Assembly (NCBI RefSeq): GCF_003627095.1
Contig: NZ_CP032627.1
Location: 1,302,001 to 1,366,000 of the forward strand
DNA: 64,000 nt
Origin: Lactococcus allomyrinae
GTDB taxonomy: Bacteria > Bacillota > Bacilli > Lactobacillales > Streptococcaceae
Reading direction: 5' to 3'
Shown here: one piece after another, positions 283 to 63,484 of the stretch
Position numbering within the stretch: position 1 is the first letter of the stretch
Layout: every line of letters begins with the position of its first letter
The notes under the pieces: model-generated
Database searches by the model: none
Told to the model about the DNA's origin: nothing
The model's input: only the letters and a program-made list of their open reading frames with translations
Made by a program: the position numbers and the translations under genes

Positions 283-332
283 TTTTTTACTGACAGAATT
301 TCTGTCAGTAAAAAAAAGCCCCAAAATGGGGC
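283..332 (-). terminator. Double-hairpin terminator of ccpA
   Basis: Read on the minus strand, a GC stem (GCCCC/GGGGC with a 5-nt loop, 318-332) is followed by a T tract (311-317). A second hairpin follows, with arms ACTGACAGA/TCTGTCAGT (289-309) flanked by T and A runs. The second hairpin is one of the many inverted TGTCAG pairs in this window. Confidence 0.85.
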
Positions 333-340
333 AATTACTC

Positions 341-1339
341 TTATTTTGTGGATTGACGTTCAATGATTTCATGGTCCAAAATCAATTGATTTTCTTCCAC
401 TTCTTCTTTAAGCATCAATTTTGTCAAAAGACGCATTGCAACCGCACCTAAATCATAGAGTGGCTGATTAACAGATGTTAAGCTTGGGTAAGTATATTGC
501 GTAATTGGTGAATTACTTCCTGCAATAATTTCAAAGTCCTCAGGTACTTTGACTCCCTTAGCCATCAAAGCCGATAAAACGCCAACTGCGACCGTATCAT
601 GAGCCACAACAACGCCTGTTACTCCTCTATCAAGTAAACGTTCGACCAAAACCTTCCCTTGTTCATAACTATAATTGCCTTCAAATACTAATTCTTCGTC
701 AAACTCAAGACCAGATTCAATCAAAGCTTCTTGATAACCAACCATGCGTTCAATGTTTTCAGCATCAGTCAATGAACCCATGATATAACCAATTTTCTTA
801 TTTCCATTTTTAGCAAGTTTTGTTGTTGCTTGATAAGCAGACAGATGATAGTCAATATTGACTGATGGAAGTTCTTTATCTCCATCAATTGTCCCAACTA
901 GCACAACTGGTGTACGCGTATTTTTTAGCGCGGTACGTACCTCTTCATCTAAAGACGACCCCATGTATACGATTCCATCAACTTGCTTAGACAGAAAAGT
1001 TTCAAGAATTTTCCCTTCTTTTTCAACATCATTATCACTGTTAGCTAAAATCATGTTGTATTTATACATGGAAGCGATATCATCAACTCCACGTGTAATT
1101 GCTGCAAAATAAGTTGAAGTGATGGTTGGCAAGATAACGCCCACTGTTGTTGTGCGCTTACTTGCAAGACCACGTGCTACCGCATTTGGACGATAGTCAA
1201 GCTCTGCGATAGCATCCAAAACCTTCTGGCGCGTCTTCTCTTTCACATTTGCATTCCCGTTTACAACACGGCTAACCGTTGCCATTGAAACTCCAGCGAC
1301 ACGTGCCACGTCATAAATTGTTGTTGTTGATTCTACCAT
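341..1339 (-). CDS. ccpA: Catabolite control protein A
   Basis: LacI/GalR-family global regulator of carbon catabolite repression, 332 aa, the usual length for CcpA. In this family it binds cre operators together with HPr-Ser-P. The N-terminal helix-turn-helix is seen in TIYDVARVAGVSMATVSRVV (residues 7-26), followed by the hinge helix (RPNAVARGLASKR) and a periplasmic-binding-like effector domain. It is divergent from pepQ, the classic lactococcal arrangement. The minus-strand promoter at 1404-1432 carries a TGAAAA/TTTTCA palindrome at the predicted transcription start, consistent with autoregulation. Identity is secure; the autoregulation is inferred. Confidence 0.96.
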   Translation of the reverse strand: MVESTTTIYDVARVAGVSMATVSRVVNGNANVKEKTRQKVLDAIAELDYRPNAVARGLASKRTTTVGVILPTITSTYFAAITRGVDDIASMYKYNMILANSDNDVEKEGKILETFLSKQVDGIVYMGSSLDEEVRTALKNTRTPVVLVGTIDGDKELPSVNIDYHLSAYQATTKLAKNGNKKIGYIMGSLTDAENIERMVGYQEALIESGLEFDEELVFEGNYSYEQGKVLVERLLDRGVTGVVVAHDTVAVGVLSALMAKGVKVPEDFEIIAGSNSPITQYTYPSLTSVNQPLYDLGAVAMRLLTKLMLKEEVEENQLILDHEIIERQSTK

Positions 1340-1381
1340 ATTCTGGCTGACCTCTTTCTTGTGTTTTGTCCACAGTATTTA

Positions 1382-1432
1382 TGAAAACCATTTTCATTTA
1401 CAAATTTTATCATAAACTGTAAACCTTTTCAA
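1382..1432 (-). promoter_or_regulatory. ccpA promoter with palindrome at the predicted start site
   Basis: Read on the minus strand: -35 TTGAAA (1432-1427), 17-bp spacer, -10 TAAAAT (1409-1404). A 15-bp palindrome with arms TGAAAA/TTTTCA and centre CCA occupies 1382-1396, directly at the expected start. It resembles a cre but has one extra central base, so binding by CcpA is a guess. Confidence 0.6.
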
Positions 1433-1540
1433 CCATCAAATACGTGATTTTTTAGAAAAATTAGCGTAAAATGAAAATAAGATGCTTTTTAAGAAGTAAA
1501 AATCTTAAAATGCTCATTTTCATAATTTGGAGGACATATT

Positions 1541-2632: not shown

Positions 2633-2722
2633 TACTCATAACTTCTAAATCATGTCATATTAAAGAGCTATATAGAGCTACATATAGTATAAAATTCTAT
2701 CGTATTTTGAGATAAAATAACT

Positions 2723-2758
2723 AAAAACGTTCCGTCAGTACTGACAGAACGTTTTTTT
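2723..2758 (+). terminator. pepQ terminator
   Basis: Hairpin with outer arms AAAACGTTC/GAACGTTTT and an inner GTCAG-TA-CTGAC stem, followed by seven T. It contains an inverted TGTCAG-type pair. Confidence 0.85.
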
Positions 2759-2785
2759 AATTTTGGATAAACAAAAAAACCTGTC

Positions 2786-2827
2786 ATAGTATAAACTCAC
2801 ATGAAAGTTGTGAACTTATACTATCCT
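2786..2827. repeat. Inverted repeat between pepQ and mapZ
   Basis: Arms ATAGTATAA and TTATACTAT surround an inner imperfect stem (CTCAC/GTGA). There is no T tract, so it is not a clear terminator. Role unknown. Confidence 0.5.
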
Positions 2828-2891: not shown

Positions 2892-4655
2892 TCAATAGTC
2901 TAAATCATCAGCATGACCTGCACCATTTCCAACGAAATAGCCTGTTTTGTCATTAATAGACACAAGATAGCTTCCGTCTGGAGCATAAAGATTGTAATAT
3001 CCACTTACAATGCCCGCTGGGAAGCCTTGGCTACCGTTTGTCGTATGGATAGCCGTTGGTACAAGGATATAGCTATTTCCTTTAATATAACCTCGCGCAC
3101 GACAAATATCTAGAACTTTCTGCAAGATACCATCACCCCAAATAAAAGCTGAATCATTTGGATTAATACCCGCTTGTGGTTGAACACGTGCTTTCGCAGT
3201 ATCAAGTGTCACGCCATTAGCACTCAAACCGCCATTATTTGTTACTACACTTGTTATCCCTGAGTTACTCGTGTCTGTACTCGTATTAGACTCAGTAGTA
3301 TTTGTTGATGGCATTGTATTACTTTGTGTACTATCTGATGATGAGGTCGTTCCAGCTGAAGTATTTTGTGTTGAAGATGCTGCAGTATTATTTTTTTCTA
3401 CTTGCGACTTAGCCAAAGCAATCGCTCTAGTTAGTAATTTATTTAATGTTTCATTACCTGTTTTAGGAGTGGCAGGAATTTTTACATTACTTATCACTTT
3501 CGGAGTAGTATCAAACTTTCCGTCAGTAATGACAGCCTTAGTAAATAAAGCGTTCACAAGATTAATCGCTGCAATTTGATCTTTCAAATCTTGTGTTTCG
3601 GAAACGGCGTTAGACCAAGCCGTTGCATTTTTATGCGGACTAATCATTTTTTCAAGAGTAGAAAGTTGAGTAAACTGATTATTTTTTAATGCCACATGAG
3701 ATTTATCAGTAAAGAAAGCATCGTAAGCTTTATTGAATTTATCTAAATCCGATGATTCACTATTACTTTTAGCCGTCTGTACTGGTTTTGGATGCTGATT
3801 GGCATTATACTGTGCAAAACCAACTGCACCTGCTCCGAGCAAAACAACTGCACAAGCACCAATAATGATCGGTATTTTTCTATTTTTACCTTTAGAACGA
3901 CTCAATACTTCTTGATTTTCATCTGAAGGAGCAATAACTGGATTTTCTGAAATTTCTGCCTGCTCTTTGATATTTTCTTCTGTTTCGTTAGTGCTGACAG
4001 TTTCTTCTGTCAGTGGCACTTCATTGGCTGACATTATGATAGGAACTGGTTCTTGAGTTACCTGTTGCTCTAAAACTTCTTCATTTGATTTTTCTACTGA
4101 CAGTTTTTCATCAGCAAATGATTCTTCTCTGTCAGTAGGTGCAACTGTCATCTTTGACTTTTCATCAACATTTTGTGCTGCATCCACCATAATAACAGGG
4201 TCTAGAGTAGGTTCCTTTTTCTCTATATCACTCTCTTCTTTAGCATCATTATTTTCATCAGAGATAATCTCTTGCTCTGATTCGACTGCTTCTGCTTTTT
4301 CCTCTTCGTGACTGACATGAGATAAAAGTTCTTCCTTGTCAGTACTGACAGGTGTTTCCTTCAAATCATCAGTTACATTTTGCTCTTCAGACTCTTCTTT
4401 CTCCTCTGAAGGACTTAACTTTTCACGCTCATTTTGGATAAACTCATCTAAATTTTTACTCTTTGCTTCTTCAATTTCGCTCCGATGTTGGCGAATATAT
4501 TTATCCAGCACTGACTCATTTTCTTGGTTTTCCTGATCTACTCGCTTTGATTGTTCGACAATCTCCCCCACAGTAAAATCCTTCAAATCTTGCAGTTTTA
4601 GCGTCTTTTCACCGATTTGCTTTTGGTTATTATTTTTTTTATTCTTGTTTGACAT
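2892..4655 (-). CDS. mapZ: Mid-cell-anchored protein Z (MapZ/LocZ-type)
   Basis: Membrane protein that marks the division site and positions FtsZ in streptococci and lactococci, 587 aa. The long acidic cytoplasmic N-terminus starts with an FtsZ-binding-like segment (LKLQDLKDFTVGEIVE, residues 20-35). A single membrane helix lies at about 261-282. The external part has a Ser/Thr-rich linker (SSTQNTSAGTTSSSDS region) and a compact C-terminal domain with WGDGILQKVLDICRARGY. The start is ATG at 4655 with GGAGGA upstream; a longer frame to 4721 has no ribosome site. Synteny with the THUMP methyltransferase, rnpB and gpsB matches Streptococcus and supports the call. The acidic region is rich in TGTCAG/CTGACA words. 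Confidence 0.88.
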   Translation of the reverse strand: MSNKNKKNNNQKQIGEKTLKLQDLKDFTVGEIVEQSKRVDQENQENESVLDKYIRQHRSEIEEAKSKNLDEFIQNEREKLSPSEEKEESEEQNVTDDLKETPVSTDKEELLSHVSHEEEKAEAVESEQEIISDENNDAKEESDIEKKEPTLDPVIMVDAAQNVDEKSKMTVAPTDREESFADEKLSVEKSNEEVLEQQVTQEPVPIIMSANEVPLTEETVSTNETEENIKEQAEISENPVIAPSDENQEVLSRSKGKNRKIPIIIGACAVVLLGAGAVGFAQYNANQHPKPVQTAKSNSESSDLDKFNKAYDAFFTDKSHVALKNNQFTQLSTLEKMISPHKNATAWSNAVSETQDLKDQIAAINLVNALFTKAVITDGKFDTTPKVISNVKIPATPKTGNETLNKLLTRAIALAKSQVEKNNTAASSTQNTSAGTTSSSDSTQSNTMPSTNTTESNTSTDTSNSGITSVVTNNGGLSANGVTLDTAKARVQPQAGINPNDSAFIWGDGILQKVLDICRARGYIKGNSYILVPTAIHTTNGSQGFPAGIVSGYYNLYAPDGSYLVSINDKTGYFVGNGAGHADDLDY

Positions 4656-4764
4656 TTTTCCTCCGAATAAGACCTCACTTCCCCAATCTCTAGGACAAGA
4701 AAATGATAAATCAGAACACAAGAGCGACTCAAACTCAACTATTCCAATACAACGCTCTGATAAA

Positions 4765-11259: not shown

Positions 11260-11283
11260 ATTCTGTCAGTATACTGACAGAAT
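11260..11283. repeat. 24-bp perfect palindrome carrying the TGTCAG pair
   Basis: Left half ATTCTGTCAGTA, right half TACTGACAGAAT. It opens the first 71-bp unit upstream of ftsK. The central TGTCAGTATACTGACA recurs at 12345-12360 and 17501-17516. Confidence 0.8.
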
Positions 11284-11497
11284 GCTCATCAATACTGAGC
11301 ATTCTTTTATCTGCCGATTTAATACTCTCTTTGGTCGTATTAAACTGACAGAATGCTCATCAATGCTGAGCATTCTTTTATCTGCCGATTTAATACTCTC
11401 TTTGGTCGTATTAAACTGACAGAATGCTCATCAATGCTGAGCATTCTTTTATCTGCCGATTTAATACTCTCTTTGGTCGTATTAAACTGACAGAATT
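11274..11497. repeat. Three tandem 71-bp structured repeats plus partial fourth
   Basis: Units start with CTGACAGAAT at 11274, 11345 and 11416, and a partial fourth starts at 11487. The period is exactly 71 bp, and the units differ by about one base (AATACTGAG versus AATGCTGAG in the loop). Each unit holds a first hairpin (GAATGCTCA/TGAGCATTC, then TTTTAT, terminator-like on the plus strand) and a second (TTAATAC/GTATTAA around an 11-nt loop). They lie between the divergent ftsK and HAD phosphatase genes. A fourth full unit lies at 12354-12424. Confidence 0.93.
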
Positions 11498-11520: not shown

Positions 11521-11556
11521 TTACAATTATATCATAATTTTGATACAATAAATTTA
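11521..11556 (+). promoter_or_regulatory. Promoter giving a possible leaderless mRNA
   Basis: TTACAA (11521-11526), 17-bp spacer, TACAAT (11544-11549), then six bases to the ATG at 11556. No Shine-Dalgarno sequence fits between them, so the start of transcription may coincide with the start codon. Confidence 0.55.
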
Positions 11557-12341
11557 TGGAAAATATCAATAATTATAAGGCGTTAGCCTTCTTTGACTTA
11601 GATGGAACTTTACTCAATTCAAAGAGTCAATTGGACGAGGAAGTCATTCTTGCTCTTCATCAGATTCGTGAAAATGGGGTTCTTCCTTTTATTGCTACAG
11701 GACGTGGTCACTTTGAGCTCGATAATATCATGAAACTGACAGGAATTTCTGGCGCTGTTGCGATGAATGGTCAGTACATTATTTTAAATGGCGAGACCAT
11801 CTACAAAGAGGAAATCCCTACTGATAGTGTTGAAAAGCTGCTGACAGCGGCAGAACCTCATAATGAAGCTCTTTCTTTTTATGATAGTAAAGGCTACTGG
11901 GTGAGCGAATTAACTGATTTTGCTAAGCAAGCCTACTCCTACACTCATATGCCACTTCCTCTGGTCGACCGCAAACGCTATCTGCAAAATGAAGTCAATA
12001 TGCTGTTAGTGCTGACCAATCAATTGAGCCAAGTTGATTACTATAAAGATGCCGTACCTGAGCTAAATTTCTTTATGAATTCTCCAAGTTCGATTGACGT
12101 GACAAACATTTCAACAAACAAAGGCACTGGAATCAATCATGTCAAAGAAATTCTCGGTTTTACAGGTGAAACTTTTGCTTTTGGTGATGGTAGAAATGAC
12201 CTTCATCTTCTCGCAGCTAGTGACCACAAAACAGCAATGGGAAATGCCGTACCTGAACTTAAAGAATTAGCCGATTTTATTTCTACGGCAAATACTGACC
12301 ATGGTATTGTCAATGCTTTCAATCATTGGGGAATTTTGTAA
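11556..12341 (+). CDS. Cof-type HAD-IIB sugar-phosphate phosphatase
   Basis: Cytoplasmic haloacid-dehalogenase hydrolase, 261 aa. Motif I FFDLDGTLLNS carries the nucleophile Asp (residues 13-23), motif II is in IATGRG, and motif IV FGDGRNDLHLL binds Mg. A mobile C2b cap domain lies in between. The family dephosphorylates sugar phosphates, FMN or PLP; the substrate cannot be read. There is no Shine-Dalgarno, and a -10 box ends six bases before the ATG. The gene is bracketed by 71-bp repeats on both sides. Confidence 0.85.
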   Translation: MENINNYKALAFFDLDGTLLNSKSQLDEEVILALHQIRENGVLPFIATGRGHFELDNIMKLTGISGAVAMNGQYIILNGETIYKEEIPTDSVEKLLTAAEPHNEALSFYDSKGYWVSELTDFAKQAYSYTHMPLPLVDRKRYLQNEVNMLLVLTNQLSQVDYYKDAVPELNFFMNSPSSIDVTNISTNKGTGINHVKEILGFTGETFAFGDGRNDLHLLAASDHKTAMGNAVPELKELADFISTANTDHGIVNAFNHWGIL

Positions 12342-12344
12342 GTT

Positions 12345-12436
12345 GTCAGTATACTGACAGAATACTCATTAAAGCTGAGCATTCTTTTATCCGCCGATTT
12401 AATGCTCTCTTTAATCGCATTAAACTGACAGAATTT
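12345..12436. repeat. Fourth 71-bp repeat unit, downstream of the HAD gene
   Basis: The unit runs 12354-12424 and is again followed by CTGACAGAATT. It is preceded by TGTCAGTATACTGACA. The second hairpin reads TTAATGC/GCATTAA where the upstream units read TTAATAC/GTATTAA, so both arms changed together and pairing is kept. The first hairpin has one A/C mismatch on the plus strand, which would be a G-U pair on the minus strand. Confidence 0.9.
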
Positions 12437-13366: not shown

Positions 13367-13399
13367 TAAAAAAATCACTGACAAGAGCCTGTCAGTGAT
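13367..13399 (-). terminator. pta terminator
   Basis: Minus-strand hairpin ATCACTGACA-GGCTCT-TGTCAGTGAT followed by seven T. Again an inverted TGTCAG pair. Confidence 0.88.
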
Positions 13400-14937: not shown

Positions 14938-14964
14938 AAACTGTCAGCATGCTGACAGTTTTTA
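14935..14964. terminator. 30-bp perfect palindrome, bidirectional terminator
   Basis: Half-site TAAAAACTGTCAGCA followed by its exact complement. It serves the DUF4176-like gene (plus) and udk (minus), with the TGTCAG pair forming the stem. Confidence 0.92.
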
Positions 14965-15989: not shown

Positions 15990-16970
15990 ATGTTAAAACT
16001 AGGAGTAGTAGGAACAAGTTGGATTGCTCGCTCATTCATTGATGCCACATCTCTCACAGAAAAATTTACTTTTAGCGCTGTTTATTCAAGACATCTTGAC
16101 ACTGCGGCAAAATTTTCAGCTGATTTTGAAAACGTTCAACAATTTGACCAGTTTGACCAGTTTTTGGCAACTGACTTAGATGCCATCTATATTGCTAGCC
16201 CAAATGCACTCCATTTTGAACAAGCAAAAGCCGCGATTTTAGTTGGTCACAATGTTATCACTGAAAAACCTGCTTTCTCAAATCCGTCAGAACTGACAGA
16301 AATTCTTCAACTTGCTGACGAAAAAAACATTCTCTTTTTCGAAGCCGCACGTAATATCCATGAGCAATCTTTCACGCTCATCAAAGATTTTCTTGCTGAC
16401 AAAACCATTACCGGTGCTGACTTCACTTATTCAAAATATTCATCAAAAATGCCCGCTTTACTGCGCGGTGAATTACCAAATAAATTTAACCCCAAATTCT
16501 CTGGTGGACTTCTTGCAGACCTTGGCGTTTACCTTTTGTACGCTGCAATCTTTTGGTTTGGAAAACCTCAAGACGCCCACTATGATGCCGTTGTTCTCCC
16601 TAGCGGAGTTGATGTTTCGGGTGTTGGCTCACTTGACTATACTGACTTCAAAGTTGCAATCAAGTGCGCTGGTAATTTTAATAGCTACTTACCCAGCGAA
16701 ATTTACACCACAGATGGCACGCTCATTTTAGATGGTGTTAATGCTATCTCCACTGCGAAATTCATCGCCGTTGACGGTTCAAAAATAAAAATCGAGCTTA
16801 CCGCTCCGAAACATTCTCTCTATGATGAAGCAGTAAAATTCGCCGAAATCCTGACCAATAAAGACTTTGAAGCAGCCCGAAAGCTCCAAAGCTTTGCCAA
16901 AGATGTCGCAAATACCTCGTACAAAATGCGTCAAAGCGCTGGTATCATTTTTGATGCTGACAAAAAATAA
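15990..16970 (+). CDS. Gfo/Idh/MocA-family oxidoreductase
   Basis: NAD(P)-dependent sugar or polyol dehydrogenase-like protein, 326 aa. The N-terminal Rossmann fold is seen in LGVVGTSWIARSF, the conserved EKP (ITEKPAFSNP) carries the family's catalytic lysine, and an alpha/beta C-terminal substrate domain follows. A GGAGG precedes the ATG. The substrate cannot be read; lactococcal homologues are usually unassigned. It is followed by inverted TGTCAG pairs and a tRNA gene. Confidence 0.88.
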   Translation: MLKLGVVGTSWIARSFIDATSLTEKFTFSAVYSRHLDTAAKFSADFENVQQFDQFDQFLATDLDAIYIASPNALHFEQAKAAILVGHNVITEKPAFSNPSELTEILQLADEKNILFFEAARNIHEQSFTLIKDFLADKTITGADFTYSKYSSKMPALLRGELPNKFNPKFSGGLLADLGVYLLYAAIFWFGKPQDAHYDAVVLPSGVDVSGVGSLDYTDFKVAIKCAGNFNSYLPSEIYTTDGTLILDGVNAISTAKFIAVDGSKIKIELTAPKHSLYDEAVKFAEILTNKDFEAARKLQSFAKDVANTSYKMRQSAGIIFDADKK

Positions 16971-16978
16971 TCTTACTC

Positions 16979-17016
16979 TGTCAGTGCTGACAACATATTG
17001 TCAGTATTGACAAAAG
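16979..17016. repeat. Two adjacent inverted TGTCAG-type pairs before tRNA-Arg
   Basis: TGTCAG-TG-CTGACA (16979-16992) and TGTCAG-TA-TTGACA (about 17000-17013) lie directly between the oxidoreductase stop and the tRNA. They have no long T tract, so termination is uncertain. Confidence 0.7.
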
Positions 17017-17500: not shown

Positions 17501-17547
17501 TGTCAGTATACTGACAAAACGGCTAGCGTTGCTAACCGTTTTTTTAT
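17501..17547 (+). terminator. Thioesterase terminator preceded by a TGTCAG palindrome
   Basis: The 16-bp palindrome TGTCAGTATACTGACA (17501-17516) is followed by a hairpin AACGG-TAGC/GCTA-CCGTT (17518-17540) and seven T. Confidence 0.88.
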
Positions 17548-26294: not shown

Positions 26295-28036
26295 CTATTT
26301 TAGAAGTTGAAGGATGTCGGCAATCATTAACTCTGGTGTGAGGTGATAACGTTCATATAATTCTGATGAGGGTACGGAATCATTAAATTCACGTTTTGCA
26401 CCGAAATTCAAAACTTTTACATCATATTTCCCAAGGAATGACGCTACTTTTTGACCGAAACCTCCATCTAAAATTCCATCTTCGATAGTGACAATAACTT
26501 CATGATTTTCTGTCAGTGCTGACAAAAATGTTTGGTCTAAATCATTGACAAAAAGTGGATTGACAAGTGTTGCCTCAATTCCCGATTTGGAGAGTTCTGA
26601 AACGATTTTTTCTCCATGAGAGTATAAGCCACCAAGCGCCAAAATTGCTACTTTTTCGCCGACTTTTTCCATCTGATAAGATGGTTCTGAATAATCTGTC
26701 AGTACTGACAAACGTGACTCCACACCATGTTCCGGCATTTGAATCACAACTGGCTCTTCATGCTGTGCAAGTGCCCAGTCAAGCATAGACAGTAATTCTT
26801 CCTCTGAAGTTGGCGCGAGATATTTAAGATTTGGAATATTAGAAATCCATGTCATTGCTGATGAACCTTGGTGTGTCTTGTCAGACCCAGAAATTACACC
26901 ACCTTTGACAATGATAATTGCTGGTTCTTCATTAATTGCGACATCATGCCAAAGTTGGTCATAAGCACGTTGTAAAAATGTTGAGTTATGGAAAATAATT
27001 GGGCGCGCGCCATAAGCCGCCATTGCTCCACCAAAAGTAATCGTGAACTGTTCAGCAATTCCTGCATCAATATAGCGCTCAGGGTATTTGCTAGCAAATT
27101 GTTTCAGACCAAAAATTCCCGGAATTGCGGCATTAATCGCAACAAGTGGTAGACCTTCTGCCATTTTTTTATCCAGATAATCAAGCATGACACTTGTGTA
27201 AGATTTTGCAGATGATGCTGTTTTTAAAGCACCAGTTTCTAAATCAAACGCGCCACGCCAATGAAAATTTTCTTTATTCTCAATTGCTGGTGCATAACCA
27301 TGTCCTTTTTCGGTGTGAATATGCAAAACAATGGGATGATCAATGTCTTTCACTTCTTCAAAAAGATGAATTAACGCTTCAATATCATTTCCTTCTTCAA
27401 GATATTTATAATCTAAACCGAAGGTTTTAAAGAAATTATTTGCTGCAGTTCCCTTTGTTTCACGTAGCTCAGCGAGATTACGGTATAAACCACCATGATT
27501 TTCAGCAATTGACATTTGATTATCATTAAAAATAATAATAAGATTACTATCAAAACCCCCTGCGTTATTTAATGCTTCCATAGCAAGTCCGCCAGAAATT
27601 GAACCATCTCCAATCACTGCAATAATATTTTCTTTGTTCTCTTTCAAATCGCGTGCTTTAGCAAATCCTAAAGCATTTGCTACAGAAGTTGAAGTATGAC
27701 CTACAGTGAAAAAATCGTGCTCAGACTCATGTTGACTAGTGTAGGGTGTAATATCATGAAAGTGTCCATCAGTAAAACCAACCTTGCGTCCTGTCAAAAT
27801 TTTATGGGGATAAGTTTGATGAGAAACATCCCAGATAAACTTATCAACAGGTGAATTAAAAACTTTGTGTAGAGCAATTGTTAACTCTGTTACTCCGAGA
27901 TTAGGACCAACGTGCCCCCGACATTTGAAACTTTATGAAGCACAGCAGCACGTACTTCAGTGGCTAATTCATTAAGCTCTGAAATTGTCAAATTTTTCAC
28001 ATCCGCAGGTGTATTTACTTTATTTAAAATTGACAT
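26295..28036 (-). pseudogene. dxs: 1-deoxy-D-xylulose-5-phosphate synthase, frameshifted
   Basis: TPP-dependent enzyme that makes DXP from pyruvate and glyceraldehyde-3-P. From the ATG at 28036 the N-terminal frame reads MSILNKVNTPADVKNL to SNVGG and then meets a stop. The downstream frame (26295-27797 and upstream) continues with HVGPNLGVTELTIALHK and later GHTSTSVANALG and GDGSISGGLAMEALN (TPP site). One base is missing in a run of five G (plus-strand C at 27915-27919). Restoring it gives about 580 aa, the short DXS length. Both parts are otherwise well conserved, so the shift is recent, phase-variable or a sequencing error. Two inverted TGTCAG pairs lie inside the gene. Confidence 0.88.
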
Positions 28037-35004: not shown

Positions 35005-36624
35005 TTAAATCTTCTGATAAACATGATATTCCCATGCTTCTAGTAGCATTTTGGTTTGAAATTGTCTGTCAGCACTTCCCAAGATATGCTGGTAATTTCT
35101 GTCAGTGCTGACAGAAGTTGTATCAAAATTCAGGTGTGCTTTTTTCGTTCCTAAATTGACCATAATCAAAAATTCATCACGTTCGTAGACAAATGCCTGC
35201 AAGTGTCTAGCAAAATGAAAACGAACGGAGCCATCAGAAATTGCTTTCTCATCATGCCGTAATTGAATCAGTCTTTGATACAGCTCTGTCAGCTCTGACA
35301 GATTTTCTGAATTTACTGTTTTAAAATTTGGATTAATCTCCATCCACGACTGACCTGTTGTAAAACCTGCATTTTCATCAAGGGACCATTGTAAAGGGGT
35401 ACGTGCGTGTTCACGACTTCCCGCCGTCACTTTTTTCAGTGCATCATCTGCTGACAGATTTTCTGTCAGCAACGCTTGGTAATGATTTTTGACTTCCTCA
35501 GCACGCAACTGACTGCTGTCAGTAAATGGAAAATTGGTCATGCCAAATTCTTGACCTTGGTAAATGAAAGGTGTCCCCCGCAACAACATGTAGCTGACCG
35601 CGAGTGCTTTTGCTGACTCAAGGGAGCCATCACCAAAAGTGTCAATACTTCTAGGCTGATCGTGATTTTCAAGATAGAGCGCATTCCACCCCTCTGCCTG
35701 TAAATCCTCCTGCCAACGCATAATCACTTTCTTGTAAGCATAGATTGAGCCTGTACCATCACTATTTGGTTTGCGCGTGTTATGTTCAAGCTCAAAAATC
35801 ATGTTGATATATCCTGAATCATTTGTCCAGCTTGAAGCCTGATGCGAGCGAACTCCTGAAGCTTCTCCAACCGTCAAGGCACCATACTCATCAAAAATCT
35901 TCTTCAAATCGTCCATGTACTGCTCAATGCCTGCAACATTCATAAACGGCTGCCACGGGCCATCGCCTTTCCATGATTTAATTTTAAAATCCCACGGTTC
36001 TTTTTGAATATGAGAAATAGCATCTAATCTAAAACCATCAATCCCAAGCTCTAACCACCAACGAATCATACGATAAATCTCTGCACGTACTTTAGGATTT
36101 TTCCAGTTTAAATCTGGTTGCTCTTTTGCAAAAACATGGAAATAAGCCTGTCTGGTCGCTTCATCATAAGTCCACGCTGAACCACCAAAAAAAGAAATCC
36201 AGTCATTTGGCATCTTCTTATCTGTAGCCTCTTGCCATAAATAATAGTCGCGATAAGGATTGTCTTTCGACTTCTTGCTCTCTAAAAACCACGGATGTTG
36301 GTCAGACGTATGATTGACAACTAAGTCCATGATTACTTTTATACCAACTTCATGAGCTTTTGTAAGCAAAATTTTGAAATCATCAAGACTTCCGAACATC
36401 TCATCAATCGCATAATAATCTGCAATATCGTACCCACCATCAAATTGTGGACTTTTGTAAATTGGATTAAGCCAAATAAAATCAACACCCAACTTTTTCA
36501 AATAAGTTAATTTTTCAATAATTCCTTGAATATCACCGATGCCATCACCATTTGAATCCTTAAAAGATTTCGGATAAATCTGATAGCCAACGGCAGAATG
36601 AAACCAATTTTTATTCTTTTTCAT
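35005..36624 (-). CDS. GH13 alpha-glucosidase (oligo-1,6-glucosidase type)
   Basis: Cytoplasmic glycoside hydrolase, 539 aa, subfamily GH13_31-like. The four GH13 regions are visible: [17 protein letters not shown] (nucleophile Asp), TVGEASG (acid/base Glu) and LENHDQPR. It lacks a signal peptide, so it acts on imported oligosaccharides such as isomaltose or panose, or on alpha-1,4 maltosides; specificity is not decidable here. It follows the amylase gene across a gap of about 160 bp that carries IS200/IS605-like hairpins. Several inverted TGTCAG pairs lie in its C-terminal half. Confidence 0.88.
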   Translation of the reverse strand: MKKNKNWFHSAVGYQIYPKSFKDSNGDGIGDIQGIIEKLTYLKKLGVDFIWLNPIYKSPQFDGGYDIADYYAIDEMFGSLDDFKILLTKAHEVGIKVIMDLVVNHTSDQHPWFLESKKSKDNPYRDYYLWQEATDKKMPNDWISFFGGSAWTYDEATRQAYFHVFAKEQPDLNWKNPKVRAEIYRMIRWWLELGIDGFRLDAISHIQKEPWDFKIKSWKGDGPWQPFMNVAGIEQYMDDLKKIFDEYGALTVGEASGVRSHQASSWTNDSGYINMIFELEHNTRKPNSDGTGSIYAYKKVIMRWQEDLQAEGWNALYLENHDQPRSIDTFGDGSLESAKALAVSYMLLRGTPFIYQGQEFGMTNFPFTDSSQLRAEEVKNHYQALLTENLSADDALKKVTAGSREHARTPLQWSLDENAGFTTGQSWMEINPNFKTVNSENLSELTELYQRLIQLRHDEKAISDGSVRFHFARHLQAFVYERDEFLIMVNLGTKKAHLNFDTTSVSTDRNYQHILGSADRQFQTKMLLEAWEYHVYQKI

Positions 36625-36674
36625 TAAACCTAATCTCTGTCAGCACTGACAGAATTTTCCTTTTATCAAAGTAA

Positions 36675-36781
36675 GTGCGTGCTAACCCCCCTCTTAGGTG
36701 GGGATGAAGCAGCACTAACTTTGAATTTTATCCGACTAAATTCAGTGGGAGTTGGAACTCCCATTGAAATAAGTCTTGACT
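36675..36781 (-). mobile_element. Possible IS200/IS605-type end remnant (hairpin pair)
   Basis: Two strong imperfect or perfect hairpins: TGGGAGTT-GG-AACTCCCA (36747-36764), and a GTGCT...AGCAC outer stem enclosing CCCC...GGGG (36684-36714). The arrangement of subterminal hairpins without a transposase resembles ends or palindrome-associated miniature forms of IS200/IS605 elements. It abuts the stop codon of the amylase gene. The classification is inferred from form only. Confidence 0.4.
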
Positions 36782-38359
36782 TCATTTCGTCAAAATTACT
36801 GTGCTGTATGCTGGAACTGTCAACTTGTCAGCTGTCAGTTTCGCCGCTCCACCTTTGATATAAAGCCCATCAGAAAGTTTGTTTCCAATGACTGCTTTAG
36901 GTAATTTTACAGTAACGGAGTCAGTATCCGAAAAATTATTGACAATCGTTAAGTCTTGCCCGTAATTAATGACAGATAAGCTATCATTACTGACAGAAAC
37001 TGATTTGATTCTGTCAGCAGCAATTTCCGGATATTTCGCCTTTAATCGTAAAATTTTCTTATACCAATTAAGCAAAGAATCTGGATTGGCTTCTTGTTGC
37101 GCAACTGAACCACCAAGTGTCGTAGCTATCATATCACTTCCAGGCACAGAAACACTTGCTTTTGGTGAATCTTTACCATCCACAGCCCAAGGCATTGGCA
37201 AGCGTTTATTCTGGTCAACACCTGAGCCACTCATTCCCAACTCCTCTCCATAGTAAATAAATGGATTGCCCGGCATGAGCAGGTAGCTTGATGCCGCCAT
37301 TTTAGATTCAGGTAGCGTATTTGTGAAATTAATCGCTCGATCCATATCATGATTGGTCAAAAACGGTGCATCAATTGCTGTCGGATTTGCTTTATGAATC
37401 TCGTCATCCCAAGCCGTTTCTCCCTCTGAAAAAGTTGAACCCTCGCCATACATCAAAGCATTCATCAATGGACTGTTATTATTATTTAAAGCATTGGGAA
37501 AAGCAAATAGTGAATTAATTTTTGAAGCATAAAGTGACGTAATATCATCTGCACCTGCATAGTCCTCGCCTACGACATAAGCTTTTTTATCTTGAGAATG
37601 AATCGTCTTCATCAACCAACTCGAAAATTTAACCGTATTTTTATCCACAGATGTGCCATAATAATAAGCCATACCATCTAAACGAAAGCCCGAAACACCT
37701 TTGTCCAGCCAAAATTTTGTGATTTTTGCGATTTCTTTTTTAACATCTGGATTGGATAAATTCAGGTCTGGCATAGACTTGTCAAACTCTGACTCATAGT
37801 ATTTTCCATTACTTGCCAAATTATAGCCTTGTTTTGGCTGACTTGACCAATTATAATAATTGACATATTTTTTATCGCCAGCAAGCGCCTTTTCAAACCA
37901 CACATTGTTTGTCGCCGTGTGATTAAATGGCATATCCAAGATGACTGCAATACCGCGTTTTTTCGCTTGTGCAATTAAGTTTTCAAAATCTGCCATCGTA
38001 CCCAATTTTGGATTGATTGCTTCATAATTTGTCACATCATAACCGTGATAACTAGGACTTGCAAAAATAGGTGTCATCCACAAGCCCTGAACTTTTAAAT
38101 CTGTTGTTGATTGGGGATTTCCAGTGTTCAAATAATCTAAATGCTGTGTAACACCATTCAAATCTCCTTGCCCATCACCATTTGAATCCGCAAAAGAACC
38201 TGTAAAAATTTCATAAAAATTGCGGTATAAACTTGGACTCACTTTTGTACTGACAGCTTTTTTGTCAGCGCTACTCGCTTGCGAATTAGTTTTTTGGCAA
38301 GCTGTCAGTACTGACAGAGCAAGAATACTCGCTGACAGTACAATGATTTTACTTTTCAT
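36782..38359 (-). CDS. Lipoprotein alpha-amylase (GH13)
   Basis: Surface-anchored amylase, 525 aa. The lipoprotein signal MKSKIIVLSASILALSVLTAC has the lipobox LTAC with Cys at residue 21. A GH13 barrel follows with DMPFNHTA, GFRLDGMAYY (nucleophile), VVGEDYAGA (acid/base) and FLTNHDMDR, then a C-terminal beta domain. The start at 38359 overlaps the maa stop by 11 bp, so translation is probably coupled. As the only exported enzyme of the island it would generate maltodextrins for MalEFG. TGTCAG words surround the signal-peptide codons. Confidence 0.9.
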   Translation of the reverse strand: MKSKIIVLSASILALSVLTACQKTNSQASSADKKAVSTKVSPSLYRNFYEIFTGSFADSNGDGQGDLNGVTQHLDYLNTGNPQSTTDLKVQGLWMTPIFASPSYHGYDVTNYEAINPKLGTMADFENLIAQAKKRGIAVILDMPFNHTATNNVWFEKALAGDKKYVNYYNWSSQPKQGYNLASNGKYYESEFDKSMPDLNLSNPDVKKEIAKITKFWLDKGVSGFRLDGMAYYYGTSVDKNTVKFSSWLMKTIHSQDKKAYVVGEDYAGADDITSLYASKINSLFAFPNALNNNNSPLMNALMYGEGSTFSEGETAWDDEIHKANPTAIDAPFLTNHDMDRAINFTNTLPESKMAASSYLLMPGNPFIYYGEELGMSGSGVDQNKRLPMPWAVDGKDSPKASVSVPGSDMIATTLGGSVAQQEANPDSLLNWYKKILRLKAKYPEIAADRIKSVSVSNDSLSVINYGQDLTIVNNFSDTDSVTVKLPKAVIGNKLSDGLYIKGGAAKLTADKLTVPAYSTVILTK

Positions 38360-53960: not shown

Positions 53961-54594
53961 AAGGTCCTCCTTTGGGATGTTGAGTTGATGTATTGGTCGT
54001 CATTTTGATATACTGGTTAGCACTTTAAAATCCTATAGAATTATGTAAGGCAAGTATCATTCATTTTTACAACACTAATATTGATTCGAAGATGACTGGT
54101 AACACTTGCATTTGCCCTGATTTTCACAACAAATTGTCTATAATAAAATTACTATCAGTTATATTATTATGTTTTTAAAATCAATCAAAGTTTTTTTACT
54201 GACAGAAATTCTGTCAGTAACTTAAAGTCGAGAAAGTACTCAAATGTCTGAAACATTATAGAAATTCAAAATGAAACTGGTATAGTGAGATGTGTGTTAT
54301 TATGATATAATGGTGCTGTAAGAAGCTTTTATGAATAGGACAAAGCTACAGACTAAGACTATATTAGTCCTATTTTGAAATCCAACAGGATTTTATTAGT
54401 CGCAATGGCATCATTTTTGCGGCAGACGTTGTTGATTTTCACAACAAACTAAACTATAATCCTGCTCCAACTTAGTCGTTTAAATAAGCTGTAGATAAAA
54501 CTATTGTATTTGTGTAGGATAGAATCATGAAGCAACCTCATAACAAATTGCTCCTAATACTTTTATCAGTACAATAATAAGTGAGGTTAATGAG
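53961..54594. other. Gene-free region with long structured leader of DUF956 copy 2
   Basis: Contains an inverted TGTCAG pair (ACTGACAGAA/TTCTGTCAGT, 54198-54218). An extended -10 TGATATAAT (54303-54311) would give a leader of about 277 nt holding an AATAGGAC/GTCCTATT stem (about 54334-54376). A segment TTGATTTTCACAACAAA...CTATAAT occurs twice (about 54117 and 54434). No gene is seen. Confidence 0.5.
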
Positions 54595-55436: not shown

Positions 55437-55558
55437 ATTTTATTTTACTGACAGATTTTCGTCAGTGAGATAAAATACTGACAGGATGCTGTCAGGGATG
55501 ATTTATAAGTTAAAAATCTTAAACAACTGAGTATAACTATTTTGAAGTGATGAAACTA

Positions 55559-55912: not shown

Positions 55913-57184
55913 ATGTTAGATATTAAAAGAATTCGTTCAGACTTTGATGAAGTCGCTAAAAAATTAGCCACTCGTGGTGTGGCTAAAGAAACACTAGAAG
56001 AACTTCGTGCGCTTGATGTTAGCCGCCGTGAACTTATCGTTAAATCAGAAGAATTAAAAAAAGAACGTAATGCTGTTTCTGAAGAAATCGCTCAAATCAA
56101 GCGTACTAAAGGAGATGCTTCTGCTCAAATTGCTGCGATGCAAAAAGTTTCTGCAGAAGTGAAAAGTATTGATGCTAAACTCGCTGACATCGAAACAAAA
56201 TTGACCGAGTATACAACAACTCTACCAAATATTCCTGCTGACAGCACACCTATCGGCGCTGATGAAGACGACAATGTAGAAGTCCGTCGTATCGGAGATG
56301 TACCAACATTTGACTTTGAACCAAAAGCACATTGGGACTTGGGTGAGGCGCTCAATATTCTTGACTGGGAGCGCGGTGGAAAGGTGACTGGTTCACGTTT
56401 CTTGTTCTACAAGGGTGCTGGTGCAAGGCTTGAACGTGCACTTTATAACTTTATGTTGGATGAGCACGCTAAAGAAGGTTATACTGAGATGATTCCACCT
56501 TATATGGTTAATCAAGATTCAATGTTTGGCACTGGTCAATATCCTAAATTTAAAGAAGATACCTTTGAGCTAAAAGACGAACGTGGCTTTGTCTTGATTC
56601 CTACGGCTGAGGTTCCTTTGACAAATTATTATCGTGGTGAGATTTTAGATGGTAGCGAACTCCCCATTTATTTTACAGCTATGAGCCCTTCATTCCGCTC
56701 TGAAGCTGGTTCTGCTGGACGTGACACGCGTGGTTTGATTCGTTTACACCAATTTCATAAAGTAGAAATGGTAAAATTCACAAAACCTGAAAATTCTTAT
56801 GATGAATTAGAAAAGATGACTCAAAACGCCGAAAATATTCTCCAAAAGTTGGGACTTGCTTATCGTGTTATGGCTCTCTCAACGGGTGATATGGGCTTCT
56901 CTGCCGCTAAAACCTATGACCTAGAAGTATGGATTCCTGCACAAAATACTTATCGTGAAATTTCTTCTTGCTCAAACTGTGAAGATTTTCAAGCTCGCCG
57001 TGCGCAAATTCGTTATCGTGACGAAGATGGAAAAGTACGGCTTCTTCATACTTTGAATGGCTCTGGACTCGCTGTTGGGCGGACTGTTGCTGCCATTTTA
57101 GAAAACTACCAAAATGCTGACGGCTCTATAACTATCCCTGAAGTGCTTCGTCCTTACATGGGCGGTCTGGAAGTCATTAAATAA
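55913..57184 (+). CDS. serS: Seryl-tRNA synthetase
   Basis: Charges tRNA-Ser, 423 aa, the usual length. The N-terminal coiled-coil arm (about 25-105) binds tRNA. Class II core motifs are visible: motif 2 [21 protein letters not shown] split at FRSEAG, and motif 3 [23 protein letters not shown] precedes the ATG at 55913. Control is by the upstream T-box, although a repeat element separates them. Confidence 0.97.
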
Positions 57185-57199: not shown

Positions 57200-57234
57200 A
57201 AAAATTTCTGTCAGCATACTGACAGGATTTTTTT
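57200..57234 (+). terminator. serS terminator
   Basis: Stem CTGTCAG-CATA-CTGACAG within flanking A and T runs (seven T). Another TGTCAG pair. Confidence 0.88.
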
Positions 57235-59674: not shown

Positions 59675-60436
59675 TTAGCCAAACTTACCTGCAACATAGT
59701 CTTCTGTCTCCTTCTTTTCTGGGTTTAAGAAGATTTTCTTCGTGTCATCCATTTCAATGACATCACCATTGAGCATGAAAGCAGTACGATCAGAGATTCT
59801 TGAGGCCTGTTGCATACTGTGAGTCACCATAATCAGTGTATAATCTTTGCGTAATTCAATCAGTGTTTCTTCGATACGTCCTGCAGAAATTGGATCAAGC
59901 GCCGATGTTGCTTCATCAAGCAGAATAATTTCAGGATTGACCGCCAAAACACGCGCAATACAAACCCGTTGTTGCTGACCACCAGATAAGCCAAGCGCTG
60001 ATGTGTGCAAAATATCTTTCACTTCATCCCAAATATTTGCAGCTTTCAGTGAATTTTCTACTACTTCATCAAGAAGCGCTTTATCTTTCACTCCTTTCAG
60101 ACGCAGTCCATAAACAACATTTTCATAAATTGAAAATGGAAAAGGATTTGGTTGTTGAAAGACCATCCCAATTTCTTTTCGCAAGTCAACAGTATCAATT
60201 TTAGGACTATAAATATTTTTCCCTTTGTAGTCAATCGCACCTGTAATTGTTACAGTTGGAATCAAATCATTCATTCGATTAATTGAACGTAGGAGCGTTG
60301 ACTTCCCACAACCAGATGGTCCAATCAAGCTTGTAATTTCATTCTTATAGAATGTCATATTAATATTATTCAGTGCTTTTTTCTTCCCATAATAAAGCGA
60401 AAGGTCACTGACAGTTAAAACTACTTCTTTTGTCAT
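59675..60436 (-). CDS. pstB: Phosphate ABC transporter ATPase PstB (copy 1)
   Basis: Cytoplasmic ATPase, 253 aa. Walker [10 protein letters not shown], signature LSGGQQQR, Walker [13 protein letters not shown], and the switch His in MVTHS. The start at ATG 60436 follows GGGAGA; the TTG at 60493 that extends the frame reads through three TGTCAG words and has no ribosome site. Many Firmicutes carry two adjacent pstB genes, as here. Confidence 0.93.
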
Positions 60437-60605
60437 ATTTCTCCCTTTGTCAGCATACTGACAACATCCTGTCAGTAGCAACAATCTATTCAATCCAAAT
60501 TGGAAAGCTAAAAGTGAATGAAAAAATGAAATTTTGAACCTACCAAAGAGCAGAAAGCAGCCTTTTTCTATTTTTCACCACTTTTAAACAAACTCTCTTT
60601 CTCTC

Positions 60606-61412
60606 TTAACCAAAGTGTCCTGAAACATAGTCCTCAGTAGATTTTAAACTTGGTGAGGTGAAAATTGTACTCGTTTTATCATATTCGATTAAATCACCAG
60701 AATAGAAGAAAGCAGTGTTATCAGAAGCACGCGAAGCCTGAGCCATATTGTGCGTCACAATAATAATCGTGTAATCCTTTTTAAGTTCCATCATGGTTTC
60801 TTCAATTTGCATGGTAGAGATAGGGTCAAGTGCTGATGCTGGCTCATCCATCAATATAATTTCTGGTTTTACTGATAAAGCACGTGCGATACAAAGCCGT
60901 TGTGCTTGCCCACCAGACATCGCTAACGCTGATTGATTAAGCGAATCTTTCACTTGTTCCCATAAAGCAGCTTGTTTAAGTGATTTCTCAACAATCTCAT
61001 CCAATTTTTTCTTGTCTTTTACACCTGCTCTCCGATGAATAAAAGCAATATTCTCATAGATAGATTTTGGAAATGGATTTGGACGTTGAAAGACCATCCC
61101 AATTTGCTTACGAACCTCAAATACATTAACCTTCTGATCATTGATATTAACGCCTTCGTAGTTGATTTTTCCAGTCACTCTTGCACCGTCAATTGTATCA
61201 TTCATACGATTCAATGCACGCAGATAGGTTGATTTTCCCGAACCAGAGGGACCAATTAGCGCTGTAATCTCGTTTTTAGGAAAACTCATCGTTACCCCAT
61301 GAATTGCTTCTTTTGTCCCATTATAGAAAACACGTAAATCAGTGGTTGAAAGAGCAATTTCATTTTCTGGCACCATAATTTGGCGCTCGTTCCAGTCATA
61401 AGTTGTTGCCAT
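60606..61412 (-). CDS. pstB: Phosphate ABC transporter ATPase PstB (copy 2)
   Basis: A 268-aa ATPase. Walker [10 protein letters not shown], Walker [13 protein letters not shown], switch His in IVTHN. The signature motif is MSGGQAQR instead of the usual LSGGQQQR. It carries an N-terminal extension ([18 protein letters not shown]) that copy 1 lacks. The start at 61412 is chosen over a TTG-type start at 61430. The two copies may form a heterodimer or alternate; unknown. Confidence 0.92.
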
Positions 61413-61479
61413 ATATAAGATGTGAGACAACCTCCTAACATCTAGGTAGTCTCAATTCCTTTCTTTTACAAGTTTGCCT

Positions 61480-62367
61480 TTAATTTGATGAAGTCAGTTT
61501 CTTATGAATTCGATTCCCAAGGAAACGTGCACCTAAATTGAAGAGCAGAACAAAGATAATCAGTACTGCTGACGCACCTGCTGAAATTTGTTGCGCTGTT
61601 GCAATAGTACCTTCAGTATTAAGTGCCCAGATATGTACTGCCAAAGTTTCAGCAGGTCTGAAGAGTGATAAAGGTGATGTGATACTCATTGGATTCCAAT
61701 TTGTCCAATTGATTGGAAGATTGGTTTGTCCTGCAGTATAGATAAGTGCCGCAGCCTCCCCAAAGACACGACCAGAGGACAAGATAACCCCCGTAATAAT
61801 CCCTGGAACAGCAGCTGGTAAAATTACTTGAATAGCGGTTTCCCATCTTGACATCCCTAGTGCCAAACCACCTTCACGTTGAGTAGTTGGAATGGCGCGA
61901 AGTGATTCCTCAACATTACGCGTCATCAATGGCAAGTTAAAAACTGTCAGCGCCAATGCACCAGATAAAACTGAAAATCCTAAACCAAATTGTAAAACAA
62001 AGATTAACATCCCGAACAAACCAACTACGATAGAAGGGAGTGAAGACAATACTTCAATTGCAGAGCGAACCACTCCAGTCAACCAATGTTTTTGGTTGGC
62101 ATATTCAGAAAGATAGATTCCTGCTCCAAGTGATAGAGGGACAGAAATAATCAAGGTTACAAGCAAAAGATAGATAGAGTTGAAGAGTTGAACAGCAATA
62201 CCACCACCAGTCAATGGGTTGGATGCTGTTGTAATAAATTCCCAAGAAATATGAGGTAATCCCTTAGCTAGAATATAAATCAAGAGAAAAGCTAGAATAA
62301 GGACAATGATGCCTGAAAGGACGTAAAGGACGCCAGTGGCAATCTTATCAGAGCGTTTAGCGTTCAT
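61480..62367 (-). CDS. pstA: Phosphate ABC transporter permease PstA
   Basis: Membrane permease, 295 aa, about six helices. The EAA-type cytoplasmic loop is GGLALGMSRWETAIQVILPAAVPGI. Its ATG overlaps the pstC stop by one base, so translation is coupled. Confidence 0.94.
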   Translation of the reverse strand: MNAKRSDKIATGVLYVLSGIIVLILAFLLIYILAKGLPHISWEFITTASNPLTGGGIAVQLFNSIYLLLVTLIISVPLSLGAGIYLSEYANQKHWLTGVVRSAIEVLSSLPSIVVGLFGMLIFVLQFGLGFSVLSGALALTVFNLPLMTRNVEESLRAIPTTQREGGLALGMSRWETAIQVILPAAVPGIITGVILSSGRVFGEAAALIYTAGQTNLPINWTNWNPMSITSPLSLFRPAETLAVHIWALNTEGTIATAQQISAGASAVLIIFVLLFNLGARFLGNRIHKKLTSSN

Positions 62368-63290
62368 TATTTGAGACTTCCTTTCTTAGCAATCGCACGC
62401 ATTGCAAGGTTAAAGAGGAGTGACATGATTAAGAGGAGTAATGCAAGTGACCAAAGTGCGTTAAGTTGGATACCTGGTGTCGCATTTGGAATTCCTGAAG
62501 TCAAGATTGATGTCAAGGTAGACGCTGGTGAAATCAAGTTTTTTGGCATCATAACAGCATTACCTACAACCATTTGAATCGCAAGTGCTTCACCAAATGC
62601 ACGTGCCATACCAAAAATAACGGCAGTCAAGATACCTGGTGTTGCTGCTCTTAATAACACGCGCCAAATTGTTTGCCAACGCGTCGCGCCAAGTCCAAGA
62701 GAAGCTTCTTTATAATGACCTGGCACAGCTCTTAAAGCATCTACTGTCATACTGGTTACTGTCGGAAGAATCATAACAAAAAGGACAAACACACCAGACA
62801 AAAGTCCGAGTCCCGTGCCACCGAATGCATGACGAATGATTGGAACAACAACTGTTAAACCGATAAACCCATAAACAACAGATGGAATACCAACCAGGAG
62901 TTCAATAACAGGTTGAAGAATTTTTTTACCATATTTTGGTGAAATCTCTGTCATGTAAATTCCAGCACCGATAGCAAATGGAGTTGCAACAAGCGCCGAA
63001 AGTACTGTAACAATCAATGAACCAGAAAACATAGGAAGTGCGCCAACAGCAGGTTTACCATCTGGCCCCAAATTTCCTGGCGACCAATTCGTCCCAAAAA
63101 GGAAACGAAATGGATTAACACCATTGGCATAAAAAGTTGACAATCCTTTTTGTGCAACAAAAACAAGAATCGCACCAACTACAAAAACGATAAGGGCAAT
63201 ACACAAGAAAGTTAAACTTTTACCGAATTTTTCGAGTTTAGAATTTTTATTGCCTGAAAGCAATTTTTCTTTGATTTTTGAGTTTTCCAT
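62367..63290 (-). CDS. pstC: Phosphate ABC transporter permease PstC
   Basis: Membrane permease, 307 aa, about six helices. EAA loop: KEASLGLGATRWQTIWRVLLRAATPGI. The N-terminal cytoplasmic tail is basic. It follows pstS on the minus strand and overlaps pstA. Confidence 0.94.
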   Translation of the reverse strand: MENSKIKEKLLSGNKNSKLEKFGKSLTFLCIALIVFVVGAILVFVAQKGLSTFYANGVNPFRFLFGTNWSPGNLGPDGKPAVGALPMFSGSLIVTVLSALVATPFAIGAGIYMTEISPKYGKKILQPVIELLVGIPSVVYGFIGLTVVVPIIRHAFGGTGLGLLSGVFVLFVMILPTVTSMTVDALRAVPGHYKEASLGLGATRWQTIWRVLLRAATPGILTAVIFGMARAFGEALAIQMVVGNAVMMPKNLISPASTLTSILTSGIPNATPGIQLNALWSLALLLLIMSLLFNLAMRAIAKKGSLK

Positions 63291-63484
63291 ATAGACCTAA
63301 CTAAAATTAATTTTGACATGGTATTTTCATTGACAAATCCACTTTTTTATTATCTTAAAGTTCGGATTTCATTCACAAATCAAAGCTGACTCTCGTCAGC
63401 CTCAATTTACTAAAAATTTTTTCTGTCAGTAAGTAATAGCTTCAAAAGCATCGTGATAATTATAACTGCATACTTCAAGTAGCA

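Follow-up and report, generated by a model that had tools for sequence, protein, structure and literature searches.

The closest described systems in which bacteria mark their own DNA with a short repeated word are the DNA uptake sequence (DUS) of the Neisseriaceae, GCCGTCTGAA and its dialects, with its receptor ComP, and the uptake signal sequence (USS) of the Pasteurellaceae, AAGTGCGGT, which comes in Hin and Apl types. Another short word, the highly iterated palindrome HIP1 of cyanobacteria, a palindromic octamer GCGATCGC, is very abundant and clade-specific, and we know of no phasing or uptake role for it. In the available text of PMC1852404, about 55% of Neisseria terminators are stated to use the DUS, inverted pairs of which are described there, and the USS is given as present in 17-29% of Pasteurellaceae terminators; the accessible part of PMC12616744 describes DUS dialects in the Neisseriaceae and a USS consisting of a 9-mer core with an AT-rich extension, in two types. 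Here, we describe a short word with the core CTGACA (TGTCAG on the opposite strand) in a 64-kb stretch of the Lactococcus allomyrinae chromosome (positions 1,302,001 to 1,366,000 of contig NZ_CP032627.1, hereafter the window), which is repeated throughout that genome and may be a self-DNA uptake sequence. It resembles the DUS in being a word of about 10 nt with near 1000 copies per genome, inverted pairs, a place in terminators and dialects, and the USS in its 9-mer core and, again, its place in terminators; it differs from both DUS and USS in its Gram-positive host, in the word itself, in the phasing of its copies on one helix face and in its palindromic and clustered forms within genes. No ComP-like receptor was found for it, and its uptake bias is putative.

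An initial sequence-only reading of the window had put the TGTCAG/CTGACA hexamer at about 100 copies and proposed that these were in excess. The recount gives 101, against a mean of 30.2 and a maximum of 45 in 100 dinucleotide-preserving shuffles, so that the excess is real, albeit just 2.4-fold by a third-order Markov model (42.5 expected). It is far sharper for the 9-mer ACTGACAGA, with 32 copies in the window where the same model expects 0.7. The complete L. allomyrinae genome (G000; a chromosome of 2,695,154 bp and two contigs of 54,925 and 8,331 bp, 2,758,410 bp in all) has 523 forward and 450 reverse copies, making 973 or about 0.35 per kb, compared with 2 + 5 = 7 for the reversed word as control, and the excess is therefore genome-wide; neither whole-genome counts near the Markov expectation nor a restriction to the window, named beforehand as outcomes that would tell against it, is what we find. 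In 392 kb of chromosome there are 179 copies against 4.7 expected, a set that omits two loci (L004 and L005, 40 kb, no copies) excluded once their zero count was known and later found to be phage-like; with these added back, the figure is 179 copies in 432 kb. The same k-mer screen recovers the lactococcal Chi word GCGCGTG (39 copies versus 8.6), which serves as an internal positive control and is, as had been said, a different word, both being over-represented in this DNA. A short word in hundreds to thousands of copies, far over Markov expectation, is a hallmark of uptake sequences.

The word approximates to TRCTGACARA. Among variants of TACTGACAGAA with a single substitution, the core CTGACA is nearly invariant, A or G before it and G or A after it are both frequent, and only some 11 bp and the partner word carry information. 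Copies occur singly or in fixed inverted pairs of the forms TGTCAG-2-CTGACA, TGTCAG-4-CTGACA and CTGACA-6/7-TGTCAG. The seven window pairs initially listed as examples all exist, though none has a 2-base gap, two geometries being found instead: TGTCAG-4-CTGACA in four (11264, 14942, 17501, 57209) and CTGACA-6/7-TGTCAG in three (290, 13378, 54199). Their proposed placement at gene ends, judged against a list of open reading frames (ORFs) of at least 80 aa, holds for five, which adjoin an ORF 3' end, and fails for those at 11264 and 54199, which lie upstream of ORF starts. In a 384-kb sample of the genome, with ORFs predicted by a simple longest-ORF rule and making up 85% of the DNA, 418 of 630 copies fall within predicted ORFs and 212 between them, the latter often as terminator stems. 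An inverted partner stands no more than 30 nt away for 161 of the 212 intergenic copies and 192 of the 418 coding copies, the gap-2 inverted form is more frequent within ORFs (40 coding pairs versus 18 intergenic), and coding copies almost never lie in the reading frame where they would introduce a TGA stop. Among strict hairpin-plus-T-run terminators, 44 of 96 (392 kb) carry the word, which bears out the suggestion that many terminators are built on the pair; the word is nevertheless not mainly a terminator unit, because two thirds of its copies lie in predicted ORFs. Occurrence in both orientations, in coding as well as intergenic DNA and as inverted pairs in terminators is the distribution of an uptake sequence, and unlike repetitive extragenic palindromic (REP) elements, bacterial interspersed mosaic elements (BIME) and miniature inverted-repeat transposable elements (MITE), the word is not a discrete inserted unit found mostly outside genes.

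Across 18 Lactococcus genomes, ACTGACAGA occurs in 8 to 1,061 copies, with 610 in L. cremoris NBRC 100676 (G001) and 246 in L. taiwanensis (G016), which favours a CTGACA-4-TGTCAG geometry (23 pairs). Other species use dialects: TRCTGACGRA reaches 782 copies in the whole genome of G012 (control 17) and is raised as well in G000, G001, G007 and G011 (170-218), TTTGACAGAAC has 362 copies in G009 (control 2) and 27 in G015, and the palindrome TGTCAGnnCTGACA is found 705 times in G005, 494 in G013, 376 in G011, 349 in G000 and 71 in G002, and is low in L. cremoris (16) and G007 (20). Five genomes that form one supported clade on the ComEC tree (G003, G004, G006, G008 and G010) all stay at control level, with 9-21 copies against 13-22 for the controls, as does G017; of these control-level species, G003, G004 and G017 were covered by a k-mer screen for other words, and G006, G008 and G010 by four patterns only. 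Word signals are weak in G002 and G015, and none is seen in G014, a 71% complete genome. Several forks among word-bearing species on this tree are weak or open, with CTGACA-type and dialect species intermixed there. In a search of 196 genomes of the family, the top count of ACTGACAGA outside Lactococcus is 72, in G045 (genus g2), which has its own form, GCGCTGACAGA; none is seen in 26-37 kb of the g2 genomes G027 and G040, and no such word in the 20-60 kb sampled from each of G018, G019, G021, G022, G025, G026, G028, G035 and G041. The accessible part of PMC10151293 lists for L. lactis Lac3 a cas-less 'CRISPR consensus', TTTATTACTGACAGACTTGTCAGC, that contains the word as an inverted pair; L. 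lactis proper would, on this hint, bear the word as well, and the entry, as far as that text goes, may be a misannotation of it. We found no earlier description of the word itself in our searches of the open-access literature. Repeats of other kinds were also noted: in 35 kb of G026 (genus g10; L190-L191) a different set of words, among them AACCCAGG and GGCGACAC, is strongly repeated, probably as a repeat family, and G012 has repeated stretches such as GAGAAAATGCTGACG and CCATAGACC (L071-L073 and L122-L128), the former overlapping the dialect word.

The copies are also placed in register with the DNA helix. In L. allomyrinae, inter-copy distances recur every ~10.3 bp to roughly 300 bp, in both coding and intergenic DNA. 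For the 160 direct pairs separated by 15-110 bp, R is 0.49 with a Rayleigh p of ~4e-17, and among 240 hexamers of 300-1000 copies CTGACA ranks first for phasing, ranks 2 and 3 overlap it, and the best unrelated hexamer has an n*R^2 of 6.5 as against 37.8. None of 5000 jittered sets reaches the observed phasing of direct pairs, taken separately for coding and intergenic DNA and with codon-step jitter included; for the inverted classes 0 to 3 of 5000 do so (all pairs), rising to as many as 15 of 5000 when the nearest intergenic CTGACA-n-TGTCAG pairs are taken, and pairs of one coding and one intergenic copy (n = 8-9) show no significant phasing by this test. Keeping one direct pair per kb leaves n = 90 and p ~1e-9. 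A single-face model with its reference point 0.7-0.8 bp 3' of the CTGACA centre fits the direct and both inverted orientations, and the zero-phase fit gives a period of 10.34 (bootstrap 10.32-10.38) that fades past ~300 bp, a value that rests on the phase being fixed at zero, since a free phase over short ranges gives 10.2-10.7. Copies are clustered, with 335 pairs at 15-110 bp where 103 are expected.

Two other sources of this periodicity were considered and set aside. Removing pairs with similar flanks, as tandem repeats would produce, takes the direct pairs from 167 to 156 (27 dropped overall) with little change. An AA/TT rhythm or amphipathic helices do not seem to account for it either, the coding AA/TT period being 11.1-11.3 and intergenic word pairs being phased as well. 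At the same loci the AA/TT period is 11.1-11.3 over all DNA too and a weak 8.7-10.2 in intergenic DNA, where AAAA/TTTT gives a likewise weak 10.0-10.4; the word and AA/TT periods thus stand clearly apart only in coding DNA, and the contrast is soft and no firm argument. Elsewhere, G012 and G009 show phasing of their own dialect words when one direct pair per kb is kept (p ~3e-6 and 4e-5). The repeat filter matters in G012, dropping 84 of 192 pairs and moving the direct-pair p from ~1e-26 to ~9e-6, and the period estimate for that genome was made without it. Phasing is also found in G011; in G007, L. cremoris and G045 it is weaker and comes from a smaller number of pairs, with a wide bootstrap interval for the period in L. 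cremoris and G007 (about 9.9-11.7); it is absent among the top words of the control-level genomes G003 and G004. We take such phasing as evidence, at the level of sequence, for a protein that would read double-stranded DNA from one side.

The word is rare in the mobile DNA examined. Chromosomal loci compared (for L. allomyrinae the set without L004 and L005) have 0.36-0.50 copies per kb; the phages TP901-1, bIL285, bIL286 and sk1 have 3, 1, 2 and 1 copies (0.03-0.08 per kb; 0.2-0.4 expected each). There are none in 72 kb from two L. cremoris plasmids, one sampled over 50 kb and the other, of 22 kb, in full, one in the 28 kb examined of 63 kb of L. allomyrinae plasmid contigs, one in 80 kb of a conjugative contig of G005 (relaxase, coupling protein) and, in the L. 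allomyrinae prophage-like island of L004 and L005, no ACTGACAGA in 40 kb that encode topoisomerase, helicase and phage-family proteins. The depletion in mobile DNA that marks uptake sequences is thus seen here in four phages, one island, one conjugative contig and ~100 kb from plasmids. Within ~184-298 kb of the L. allomyrinae chromosome (L003-L005) lies prophage-like DNA whose genes include those for topoisomerase, helicase and DNA methylase.

How copies arise can be followed in the sister genome G011, which is 95.0% identical over 78.6 kb of alignment holding 135 words. Of these, 109 are conserved; one base differs in 21 and two bases in 2, and 3 are gapped within the word. Indels of at least 6 lie no farther than 30 bp from 6 of the copies. 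All three gapped copies are intergenic, and all 87 coding copies are gap-free, differing at most by substitutions. Judged from this close sister, the word seems to arise in place by point mutation, as uptake sequences do, with 1-2 substitutions accounting for 23 of 26 differing copies. Conservation in the sister does not differ significantly from that of control words, and in six more distant genomes it is near or below the level predicted from identity; copy number is therefore maintained while positions drift, which is the pattern of a genome-wide drive or a redundant function and not of individual regulatory sites.

The proposal that the word is the self-DNA uptake sequence of a lactococcal clade, working as the DUS does in Neisseria and the USS in Haemophilus, and of a new, Gram-positive kind, is the likeliest of the readings, though we put it at about even odds. 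An uptake word was among the possibilities first raised, and this part is strongly, if indirectly, favoured by the density, the presence on both strands, the dialects, the low counts in the phages and plasmids examined, and the substitutions in the sister, to which the phasing and the com genes can be added: comEC is found in 17 of 18 Lactococcus genomes and comGA in all 18, and comEA and comG genes are seen. According to the available text of PMC11244767, L. lactis is naturally transformable, with ComX and ComEC required. We suppose that the word would be bound by a double-strand-DNA-binding part of the cell-surface machinery for competence, and that fragments rich in it would more frequently enter the cell and recombine; further copies would come about through point mutation and spread through more efficient import of the alleles bearing them, a drive that would fill the core chromosome and not phages or plasmids. 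Receptor units in an array, as the phasing suggests, might touch neighbouring copies along one helix face, which would point to a component with many units side by side on the DNA, for example ComEA anchored in the membrane or a pilus shaft. The first receptor candidates are ComGF and ComGD, because residues of these proteins that bind DNA in pneumococcus are conserved in L. lactis (PMC12040237, in its accessible part). The uptake bias, receptor, array and drive are all steps that we infer, and to the fullest form of the proposal we give somewhat less than an even chance: that part of Lactococcus, together with one or more species from a neighbouring genus, would carry the first Gram-positive self-DNA recognition code, with dialects, a one-face receptor array and helical phase as part of the code.

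Several observations weigh against an uptake role. The com genes are for the most part found in word-free species as well, and some are interrupted in word-bearing genomes: comEC in L. cremoris, comG in G005, where the operon (L110) looks disrupted past the start of comGC though the genome is word-rich, and comGB in L. allomyrinae, where it forms two ORFs of 275 and 92 aa (comG operon, L102) as against a single 371-aa ORF in the sister G011; these could be recent losses. No receptor candidate specific to word-bearing species emerges among ComEA, the comG pilins and the genes behind ComX-type boxes, the last from a strict search (5 sites in L. allomyrinae) that makes the regulon list incomplete, and such ComEA and comG pilins as were seen show nothing unusual, whether or not the species bears the word. 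The available text of PMC11244767 reports transformation of L. lactis with a 3.7-kb homologous rpsL fragment, and the 3.3 kb around rpsL hold one weak copy in L. cremoris (5 in L. allomyrinae, 4 in G011), so that the word is probably not strictly needed for transformation. Uptake outside Neisseria and Haemophilus is stated to be sequence-independent in the accessible part of PMC12040237. Phasing over 300 bp would not be predicted from a single pilus-tip site, and in the accessible portions of the open-access literature we did not find such phasing between copies described for the DUS or USS. Direct-pair phasing is weak in G013 and not significant in L. taiwanensis and G005. Positional conservation in the sister, at 0.81 versus 0.70 for control words (43 of 61 conserved), does not differ significantly (p = 0.14). 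In alignments with the more distant species, gaps fall on 26 of 177 words, compared with 1 of 127 control words (p = 6e-6); these gaps are nearly all of 1-4 nt (two are of 7-8 nt in the relative), and may mark fast-evolving segments, or small indels may make words besides substitutions.

The main rival to an uptake sequence, and one we hold unlikely, is a binding site for a nucleoid or chromosome-organising protein that would act cooperatively along one helical face, with a specificity that shifted between species. One-face phasing to ~300 bp together with the clustering of pairs is the expected trace of a cooperative nucleoprotein filament, and the wide spread, the use of both strands and the depletion in recently acquired DNA fit this too. 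The word period of ~10.3 departs from the AA/TT period of coding DNA, softly given the intergenic values above, and word positions turn over as those of control words do; a change of dialect, and a sister clade that lacks the counted words, would be odd for a core chromosome protein, and no such protein was found. Less probable again is an over-represented word of the HIP1 type, driven for instance by a mutation bias from methylation or repair: HIP1 is likewise abundant and clade-specific, but it is a simple palindrome whereas the lactococcal core is non-palindromic and different, and neither one-face placement nor species-specific fixed pair geometries are expected from mutation bias.

A recombination or segregation signal resembling Chi or the FtsK-orienting KOPS, also raised in the sequence-only reading, is very improbable. 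The word shares with such signals its shortness, genome-wide spread and depletion in the mobile DNA examined, and like the lactococcal Chi it is over-represented in L. allomyrinae. The reading fails because the orientation of the 9-mer does not track replication direction (44:32 versus 51:52, p = 0.29) while that of GCGCGTG does at the same loci (12:5 versus 3:16, p = 0.002), and inverted pairs would defeat any polarity; genome-wide, the 523:450 strand split of ACTGACAGA is slightly uneven (p = 0.02). Least likely of all, by a little, is the early suggestion of a spreading terminator hairpin or REP- or MITE-like mobile unit, for which the word-bearing terminators, one 71-bp tandem array and the gaps in distant alignments could be cited, and which fails because two thirds of copies lie within ORFs and helical phasing is a property of double-stranded DNA not expected of RNA hairpins, the differences in the sister being moreover almost all substitutions, the distant gaps mostly of 1-4 nt and the information confined to the word and its partner.

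Copies and clusters within the window are collected in the table. The tandem array consists of a 71-bp unit in 3.2 repeats at 99% matches (11273-11496), each unit beginning with the word and hairpin, and a stretch near 12344-12430 is similar-looking to it.

Table. Pairs, clusters and other occurrences of the CTGACA/TGTCAG word in the 64-kb window of L. allomyrinae (positions in the window; a point, no strand given).
Feature	Position	Strand	Context
Inverted pair CTGACA-7-TGTCAG	290..308	.	beside 3' end of ORF 341-1339
Word in 15-bp terminator-like stem	2741..2746	+	
Eight copies, including TGTCAGTACTGACA at 4337	3994..4350	.	within MapZ-like ORF 2892-4721
TGTCAG-4-CTGACA opening the 71-bp tandem array	11264..11279	.	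intergenic, upstream of ORF starts
TGTCAG-4-CTGACA	12344..12359	.	directly past end of ORF 11556-12341
CTGACA-6-TGTCAG, terminator-like stem	13378..13395	.	
TGTCAG-4-CTGACA	14942..14957	.	flanked by two convergent ORF ends
Four-copy cluster, both pair geometries	16957..17004	.	spans end of ORF 15990-16970
TGTCAG-4-CTGACA	17501..17516	.	past end of ORF 17114-17494
TGTCAGTGCTGACA	26511..26524	.	within transketolase-type ORF 26295-27797
TGTCAGTACTGACA	26697..26710	.	within transketolase-type ORF 26295-27797
Eight-copy cluster	35067..35522	.	within alpha-amylase-type ORF 35005-36624
Six-copy cluster, including TGTCAGCACTGACA at 36638	36638..37017	.	
Five-copy cluster, both pair geometries	38250..38337	.	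within ORF 36782-38422
CTGACA-7-TGTCAG	54199..54217	.	intergenic
CTGACA-6-TGTCAG	55478..55495	.	intergenic
TGTCAG-4-CTGACA	57209..57224	.	past end of ORF 55913-57184
Four-copy cluster, both pair geometries	60408..60475	.	

Sequence-specific DNA uptake has so far been held to be the exception of two Gram-negative groups. If the word is indeed an uptake sequence, how species barriers to gene transfer evolve could be tested in safe laboratory strains of a food-grade model genus, and the word might help to explain the poor transformation of lactococci by some donor DNA. Even if it is instead read by a chromosome protein, a genome-wide code laid out on one face of the helix and spoken in dialects would seem to be new.

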